64,000 bases of DNA from Atrina japonica (Eukaryota > Mollusca > Bivalvia > Pterioida > Pinnidae). The notes beneath the pieces are model-generated. The model did not search any database. It saw only the letters and a list, made by a program, of their open reading frames with translations, and had not been told where the DNA came from. The position numbers and the translations under genes are program-made. The DNA lies in NCBI GenBank assembly GCA_030159075.1, contig BROG01000639.1, positions 1 to 64,000 of the forward strand, written 5' to 3'. Of this stretch, positions 11,601 through 14,600 are shown piece after piece (within the stretch, counting starts at the first letter, position 1; every line of letters starts with the position of its first letter).

Positions 11601-14600
11601 ATGACGCCCTCACCTGCTTTGATAAAGACAAAGAAACAGAAACAGAATAAATTTCAATAACACTTAAATATTGGTTCAAATATGTTCCTGGGACAAAATG
11701 TTAAAAGAAACAGGTAATAATCCAATATAATCAAATGGTCATTTGTTTACTGTTTAGTTTAATTTTCTATTTCCTTTTTGTCAGCATTCGGCACTTGCAT
11801 TTTTGTACGTCATTTTTAAAAACAAACTAAGATCATTTTATGAAGTTATCTTGTCGTATAGCAAAGTGGTATCAAGTGATGATAGGTCAATTGTAGGCCA
11901 TTTCTAGTCAATCAGAATCCGAGTTATTGTAAAACAAAAACTTGTAAGAAGTGGAGTAAAAGCATAATCCCAACACCTTTATTTTTAGCACTGCTGCAAT
12001 ATATACAGTGTAACATTAACACACAGGTAAGCTTGATTTAATGAAAAATGGAAAAAAAAATAAATGGAATGAAATTTAAACTGAAACAACAATAATAAAA
12101 TGAATATAAAAATAAATAAATTGAAGGAGTTTGTATTTTTAACTGAAATCAAAACTAAACACTTGGGCTCAAAATCAAACATGTCTTACTATAGTTACTT
12201 AAATTTAGCATTATTCATTACAAGTAATAATCATGTATAAAGGAGTACAGCAGTAAAAACCTTATTTGTAGAATAATGAAAAACTACACCTTTTGCTTTG
12301 CTTGTTGTAGCAAGTCAATATCTACAATTCGCAAAAATAATTTGCAAAAGTTTATCCACAGGGCGCTGTGTCTACCTGTGCAATTAATACCTAAATTAGC
12401 AGGTAAACATTAAAGAACAACATAAAAATTATCGTCCACAGTATTTCACACAAATTGATTTCAATTTATTTTAAATAATGATTTTGGTTTTCTTATTGTT
12501 AGCTTTCCACATTTAAATTGTGATATAACTTTTTTCACCGACATAAGGTGTTTATTCCTCACAGATAATCTGGTATGCCAGGGCCTGTTCAATTTATGAA
12601 CATTTCATATACAGAGGCAAACTACTTACTGATACTTAAGTCAATATAGTTATCTTCAACTCGTCAAACAGATACTGTATAACTGGAAATTTTAGCTCCT
12701 GTTTAATTTTCGCCCTTTTCGCCCATAGATGAAAGGGCGAAATTAAATGAAAGCGAAATCTTCATGCTAAAGAATTGAAGCACGGACATGCATGCCATCC
12801 ATGACACTATGGGCGAATTTAAGACGTGGTGAATATGTTTTCAGTCAGAAAAGGGTGTAAATAACTAGGGTTTTAACTCATATGTTTAAAACGAAAATCA
12901 AATTTTGAATTCTTATACAAGATATGTGAAAGTGTACATTTAAAGCACCTTCGGTTGTTCATTTCACTGAAACACTGTATTAGGATGTGCTTTGAAATAG
13001 TATTTATATATCACATGTACCTCTCCAGCATCATCTTTTAAGTTGTAAGCAAAATCACCAACATGAAGCACTGCTGTGTACTTTCCTGATAATATAGCTC
13101 TATCAAGAGTCGGAATGGTATCTGCCTCCACGCCTAAGTCCCCGTACACAATAAAATCTGGTGCCCAGTTCTAAATCATAGAAAACAGTCATATTGAACT
13201 TAAATGCAATTATGATGATAAAAATCAAAAATTGTATCGCTCACTAGGTACAATGTGCTCAAAGATTTGCATATAAGCATTTGCTCATATAAAATGTACA
13301 TCTATACAGAATGAACATACACATATATGCCCATAAGCCTCTATCAATTAAATTGAACTAACATTTTCTATGTCCTGTTTCATCATTTTGTAATTTCCAA
13401 CATAAACACTGCAAAACAATATTGTTATTTGGGTTGACAGTAAAATAGAAGTAAAACATAACCCCGTATGAATATTTAACGGTTATATAGTATTTCAATT
13501 GATACTGACTTTTTACCATTTCTCTGTCAAAAATGGAGATGTACTTACATTTCCTGATGGTGGTGTTTTAAAGTAGAACGGTCCACTGCTTATGTTTGAA
13601 CTTAAAGGTCGGTAGAAGTATGTTTGATTTGCCTTCAAACCCTGCAAAGACAAAAACACCATTCTGAATACTAACACATTATAAACATAATAGTTATAGT
13701 TGTAATGCTCAAGACGATCGTTTCTGTCAACATGACATCATCAGTCGGGCAGGAATTCAAAATAGAGTTCCGAAACAATAATTGTATCATAAAATGCCCC
13801 AAAAAACAAATGTATTCCTACATACTTCTAAGAGTAACCACTGCAATAAGATGTAACCACTTTAATAAGATGTAACCACTGTAATAAGATGGCTATCTTA
13901 CCTTTTGAAGAGTTTAAAATTTAAAAAAGTGCTTTTCATTCGAAATATTACTTTAAAACATTCCATGACATCCAAAAATAGAATATTCCATGACATCCAA
14001 AATAGAATATTCCATGACCTCTAAAAATAGAATATTCCATGACATCCAAAAATAGAATATTCCATGACATCCAAAAATAGAATATCCTATGACATCCACA
14101 CATAGAATATTCCATATCCCTCTAGTATTACTCTTAAAAATTTATATTTTATAGGTCTAACGAATTAAACTAGAACATCCGGGTTCTGCCAAAAACCAAA
14201 ACAACACTTGACTTTGTTCAGGTGTACAGGTAGAGCGTTTTGTCTTGCCCTGATTCTAGGCATTAAAGTAGCTCTAATATATTTGTACGGAGAGGTAGCC
14301 TGTCATCTCTGTTAAGATCTACTTTAGACTCGTTCTGTTTGTAAGAATGTGTCAATTTATCCTGGTGGACCTACACATTGATTCATATGGTACGGTCTAA
14401 TGATTCCATTACAGTTACAACAAATCTGTAGATGATGATTCCTTCAGAGAAATATTGCTTCAAACATCTCTACAAATGAGATAATTATCATATAGAAAAT
14501 ATGGTACAGACGACCATACCTACAAATGGAGTTCCTTTCCAGGAAAGGTGTTCAAAGGTTTCTATGACTTTTAAGATGCTTCATATTTCAAATATCGGTG

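Follow-up and report, generated by a model that had tools for sequence, protein, structure and literature searches.

Penelope-like elements (PLEs) are said to carry minimal type I hammerhead ribozymes (HHRs), as reported by Cervera and De la Pena in 2014. Minimal type I hammerheads are described as present by the thousand in many metazoan genomes, for the most part scattered through non-coding sequence, with some in the pseudo-LTRs of PLEs, where the role of the hammerhead is called unknown (PMC7761336). More than 6000 type I motifs, of minimal or canonical form, are reported from Acropora millepora (PMC7229834), and the giant squid has 235 hammerheads at the gathering score (PMC6962438). PLE hammerheads are described as usually being without helix III nucleotides (PMC7761336) or without helix III altogether (PMC6155905); where canonical motifs are discussed, a helix III that has 2 bp and a tetraloop is likened to that of invertebrate HHRs (PMC7229834). 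The hammerhead of an Anolis PLE did not cleave without the element's protein, and hammerhead mutants left insertion in vitro unaffected (PMC11167929). Outside PLEs, retrozymes are reported in a mussel (PMC7229834), and the intronic hammerheads of the amniote genes RECK and C10orf118 are conserved across species, cleave in vitro and have a proposed retroelement origin (PMC3088659, PMC6155905).

The window analysed here, the whole of a 64,000-nt stretch of Atrina japonica DNA, contains a type I hammerhead motif, HH1, in an intron of ACP7. The features that bear on its origin are the following.

13707..13750, minus strand: HH1, type I hammerhead motif (core letters, descriptor, Rfam match)
13642..16630, minus strand: ACP7 intron holding HH1 (GT donor, AG acceptor)
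13549..13641, minus strand: ACP7 exon downstream of HH1 (purple acid phosphatase N-terminal domain match, splice site)
13704..13745, minus strand: stretch common to HH1 and HH3, 42 bp, 83% identity (alignment)
3423..3476, plus strand: HH3, sister of HH1 with a broken core, flanked by two ACP7 exons and antisense to them (alignment with HH1)
22724..23820, plus strand: degenerate PLE fragment, in two frames (tblastn with 38 homologues)
24014..24057, plus strand: HH2, the other complete type I hammerhead motif, with its cut predicted at 24051/24052 (descriptor, Rfam)

Read on the minus strand from 13750 to 13707, HH1 is GCCCGA-CTGATGA-TGTCA-TGT-TGACA-GAA-ACGATCGT-C^-TTGAGC, with a predicted cut at 13713/13712. 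The complete core announced by the original prediction is there, and all invariant letters were found: CTGATGA occupies 13744-13738 and GAA 13724-13722, A15.1 is 13721, U16.1 is 13714 and the cleavage C is 13713. Both predicted stems were recovered as well, namely a stem II of five pairs (13737-13733/13729-13725) with a TGT triloop, and a stem I with five standard pairs (one G-U) and a C·A mismatch inside 13750-13707, a sixth pair (13751/13706) lying just beyond. Helix III consists of A-U and C-G, 2 bp closed by the palindromic tetraloop GAUC, and forms a self-complementary stretch of 8 nt. HH1 thereby satisfies the definition of a type I hammerhead (CUGANGA / GAAA / UH, three helices, stem I open-ended), its helix III being only 2 bp long; no loop-loop contact was recognisable by eye. 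The hammerhead fold has an energy of -2.5 kcal/mol against -9.0 kcal/mol for the MFE structure, which pairs part of the core, and both values are weak as evidence because the folding model omits core and tertiary contacts.

Rfam gave no match across the window at the gathering score, and a search of 601 nt at E<=5 had no hammerhead among its results. When 81 nt were searched, Hammerhead_1 (RF00163) was the best of four matches, at exactly 13707-13750 (-), with 15.1 bits and an E of 0.24; the Rfam check proposed with the original prediction was thus right as to top family and coordinates and fell short of the gathering score of 34 bits, a curation threshold that lies outside the definition of a hammerhead. 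HH2, similarly, had RF00163 as its best match in a tight search (20.8 bits, E 0.0038), again under the gathering score of 34, and such tight stretches recovered motifs missed by the whole-window and 601-nt searches. With a descriptor that strictly required the core, at least 4 pairs in stem II, GAAA, two helix III pairs, H17 and three stem I pairs, there were two matches in the window, HH1 and HH2, and 8 altogether in 2000 first-order Markov windows. Looser scans yielded further candidates that were not retained. A core at 21530 (-), from a loose regular expression, has a 3-bp stem II and a 9-nt loop and was dropped by the strict descriptor; 46936 (-), from a one-mismatch scan, had no further support; and matches of model R1 at 25767-25815 (E 0.76) and 62566-62617 (E 1.2) were taken as chance. 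Model R1 was built from HH1, HH2 and HH3, so that their own R1 scores follow by construction.

The intron holding HH1 is 2,989 nt long and has clear splice sites, with the donor CAG|GTATTA (intron from 16630) and the acceptor TTTGCAG|GG (exon from 13641). HH1 lies on the same strand as the gene, with 71 nt of intron between the predicted cut and the exon, in agreement with the sense orientation and the distance of about 71 nt to the 3' splice site originally proposed. The exons on either side match the purple acid phosphatase N-terminal domain in Pfam (E 6.9e-5 and 1.3e-3), both matches falling under the curated cut-off. A protein search with six joined exon pieces gave 1092 matches, ACP7 proteins as judged from the best 120 of the 1092; among these 120 the two best by E-value are from gastropods (43-44% identity), the top one being the ACP7 of Bulinus truncatus at 44% identity. 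Within the collection of papers searched, none linked ACP7 with a ribozyme. The same intron carries minisatellite arrays at 14747-16112, 13960-14115 and 13829-13891, with units of 25, 25 and 19 bp, respectively, and the 19-bp array comes to an end immediately upstream of the part of the intron that was compared with HH3.

HH3 bears on the origin of HH1. Over 13704..13745 the two agree in 35 of 42 letters (E 3e-6), and since 24 of the 29 letters outside the 13 core letters are identical (counted by hand), the likeness exceeds that of the motif itself. With 83% identity over 42 bp, HH1 and HH3 are two copies of a dispersed sequence that is at least 42 bp long and has its 3' end just past stem I. 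In HH3 the core is broken, GAAA having become GGAA, and pairs of stem II and helix III are lost. On the 3' side no likeness was found past GCATT, where the flank score was reached by a fraction 0.854 of 2000 controls; the flanks are no more alike than controls, and thus the common part ends just past stem I. Upstream of the 42-bp stretch 38 of 80 aligned letters are identical. The anchored score there was reached by 31 of 8000 control pairs, and the local score by 3/1500 controls with flanks of 100 nt, 61/1500 with 300 nt and 232/300 with 1500 nt, so that significance fades as the flanks lengthen. A weaker likeness over about 80 nt, to about 13825, may possibly exist. A single 125-nt repeat for HH1 and HH3, with its 38 of 80 letters outside the 42-bp stretch, was kept as a possibility only; when a profile of that length was run, it recovered no sequences beyond its own two members.

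HH2 shares with HH1 its CTGATGA, 5-bp stem II, TGT triloop and GAAA, and has four stem I pairs and a 2-bp helix III with the palindromic loop ACGU. HH1 and HH2 have no common flank. HH2 begins 190 nt past the stop of a degenerate PLE-like ORF on the same strand. A protein search with 22811-23620 gave 38 proteins, the best of them 80% identical (E 9.4e-132). In the precomputed domains, this best homologue carries PF01541 and others carry PF00078, which we take to be GIY-YIG and reverse transcriptase (RT), respectively. Because the homologues combine the two, we read 22724-23820 as a putative Penelope-like element; two stretches of the fragment, when scanned directly with Pfam, returned no families. 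HH2 is in this way linked to a PLE. For HH1 such a link was not found, since tblastn with the 38 PLE-like proteins matched only 22724-23820 within the window. The original statement that no retroelement surrounds the motif accordingly stands for the HH1 flank as far as PLE coding sequence is concerned, but overlooks HH2, which follows that fragment some 10 kb away. Because no PLE coding sequence adjoins it, we label HH1 PLE-like and do not assign it to a PLE.

Other possible traces of mobile DNA occur in the window. Apparent fragments of a second, RT-like element lie at 28318-29255, 21450-21521 and 12477-12633 (+), one of them inside an ACP7 intron, and short pieces match ORFs of the long fragment in tblastn with identities of 87.5% (24 aa), 40% (40 aa) and 65.5% (29 aa); Pfam found no families in two ORFs of this region (28007-28354 and 28769-29080). 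The stretch 19910-20089 (+) reads VGFEPTVC, which presumably hints at a resemblance to a tRNA-derived SINE. ARAGORN found no tRNA gene in the window.

Among known hammerheads, HH1 most resembles the minimal type I motifs of animal genomes and PLEs, its 2-bp helix III being fuller than the barest of these. It shares with the PLE motifs the type I layout and the hairpin stem II, and perhaps also a short helix III and, judged by eye, the lack of an evident loop-loop contact, and the likeness extends to the position of HH2 just behind a PLE-like ORF. It differs from them in having no adjoining PLE coding sequence and in a helix III that keeps 2 bp and a tetraloop. The latter, shared by HH1 and HH2 and unlike the usual PLE hammerhead of the literature, speaks against derivation from a PLE, although the place of HH2 behind a PLE-like ORF suggests that the PLE hammerheads of this genome may have the fuller form. 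In the Anolis PLE the ORF begins at stem II of the hammerhead, whereas the ATG within the CUGAUGA of HH1 runs into a stop after 4 codons.

We therefore regard HH1 as, probably, a near-minimal type I hammerhead that reached the ACP7 intron as part of a short sequence of the dispersed kind, with retrotransposition by Penelope-like machinery as the most likely route. A mobile-element leftover is favoured over a gene switch because HH2 stands behind a PLE fragment and HH3 is decayed and antisense. Points that count against this reading are the weak upstream likeness of HH1 and HH3, the unshared flanks of HH1 and HH2 and the empty Pfam scan of the PLE fragment, and, as no PLE coding remnant lies near HH1, the parent element of HH1 and HH3 is one we infer. 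In that element the hammerhead would have processed (trimmed) or marked the element's RNA, and it may have worked best as a dimer, as the self-complementary 8-nt helix III stretch would allow, or with the element's protein. Once alone in the intron, HH1 would cleave slowly or hardly at all as a monomer before splicing, leave with the intron and evolve neutrally. Fast intronic ribozymes are reported to have reduced splicing, and slow ones to have left it unchanged (Fong et al. 2009, cited in PMC10919898). Whether cleavage would separate the exons depends on its rate at the predicted site, and slow or absent activity is not certain, given that self-cleavage of PLE HHRs had earlier been seen at 3-25 mM Mg2+ (PMC11167929). 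A small effect on ACP7, with normal splicing and neutral decay, is expected as the likely outcome.

An alternative is that HH1 is the remnant of a retrozyme, that is, of non-autonomous tandem units with type I hammerheads and a circular RNA of about 170-400 nt. Animal type I retrozymes resemble HH1 in their hammerhead type and in a helix III of two pairs with a tetraloop, as in invertebrate HHRs, and a mussel is among their reported hosts (PMC7229834). They differ in being arranged in tandem and in having canonical loop-loop contacts. HH1 stands alone: the exact core scan, the one-mismatch scan and the R1 model found no tandem partner near it, and the eye recognises no such contact. The retrozyme reading is on these grounds already disfavoured and we consider it unlikely.

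A less probable alternative is a domesticated intronic ribozyme that would cut the ACP7 pre-mRNA ahead of splicing and so adjust expression or isoforms, along the lines proposed for RECK hammerheads and reported for the Cpeb3 HDV-like ribozyme. HH1 does have an intact core on the sense strand 71 nt before an exon, whereas its antisense sister HH3 has decayed, and inhibition of an intronic ribozyme raised CPEB3 expression (PMC10919898). Its form is, however, near-minimal and it is a copy of a dispersed sequence, and the contrast between an intact HH1 and a broken HH3, which fits selection and equally a younger insertion, is a sample of two. The amniote intronic hammerheads share with HH1 their location and proposed retroelement origin; they are conserved and cleave in vitro, while HH1 is a predicted ribozyme. 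Domestication in this sense seems to us improbable, and slightly more so the specific version in which an active HH1 has been kept and, by cutting slowly upstream of the acceptor, would compete with splicing and thus determine how much ACP7 mRNA is made. Of the two fates offered by the original prediction, the domesticated copy finds no support, a core-broken sister being found antisense in another ACP7 intron, whereas the stranded copy gains it from HH3 and from HH2 behind the PLE fragment. Finally, chance occurrence of a hammerhead-like sequence, which the sub-threshold Rfam score and the caution that the simple motif arises by chance in large databases (PMC3088659) might favour, is scarcely credible against two descriptor matches in one window versus 8 in 2000 simulated ones and, as the stronger argument, against the sister copy HH3.

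Beyond the window, the pattern CTGATGA-N5-TGT-N5-GAAAC matched 82 stretches in viral contigs, 12 of which have 4 or 5 stem II pairs, some being near-identical to one another. Two of the 12 look by eye like whole hammerheads with a 5-nt stem II and a TGT triloop (L037 near 6952 and L069 near 8550, both +). A pattern specific to HH1 and HH3 had no match in viral and genome contigs, collections not meant for animal genomes, and searches of the same collections for PLE proteins yielded 74 and 24 pattern stretches, of which tblastn confirmed none. The absence of relatives there says little.

Hammerheads of this kind are already known, and HH1 adds another member; the ACP7 locus itself looks ordinary. 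If HH1 were active after all and kept in the intron, it would be for invertebrates what the intronic ribozymes are for amniotes, standing beside the kind of retroelement hammerhead that would have given rise to it. Insertions of retroelement hammerheads have been proposed as the material from which conserved intronic ribozymes arise, and a single stretch of 64 kb illustrates how they scatter into genes, with HH2 behind a PLE, HH1 sense and intact, and HH3 antisense and decayed.
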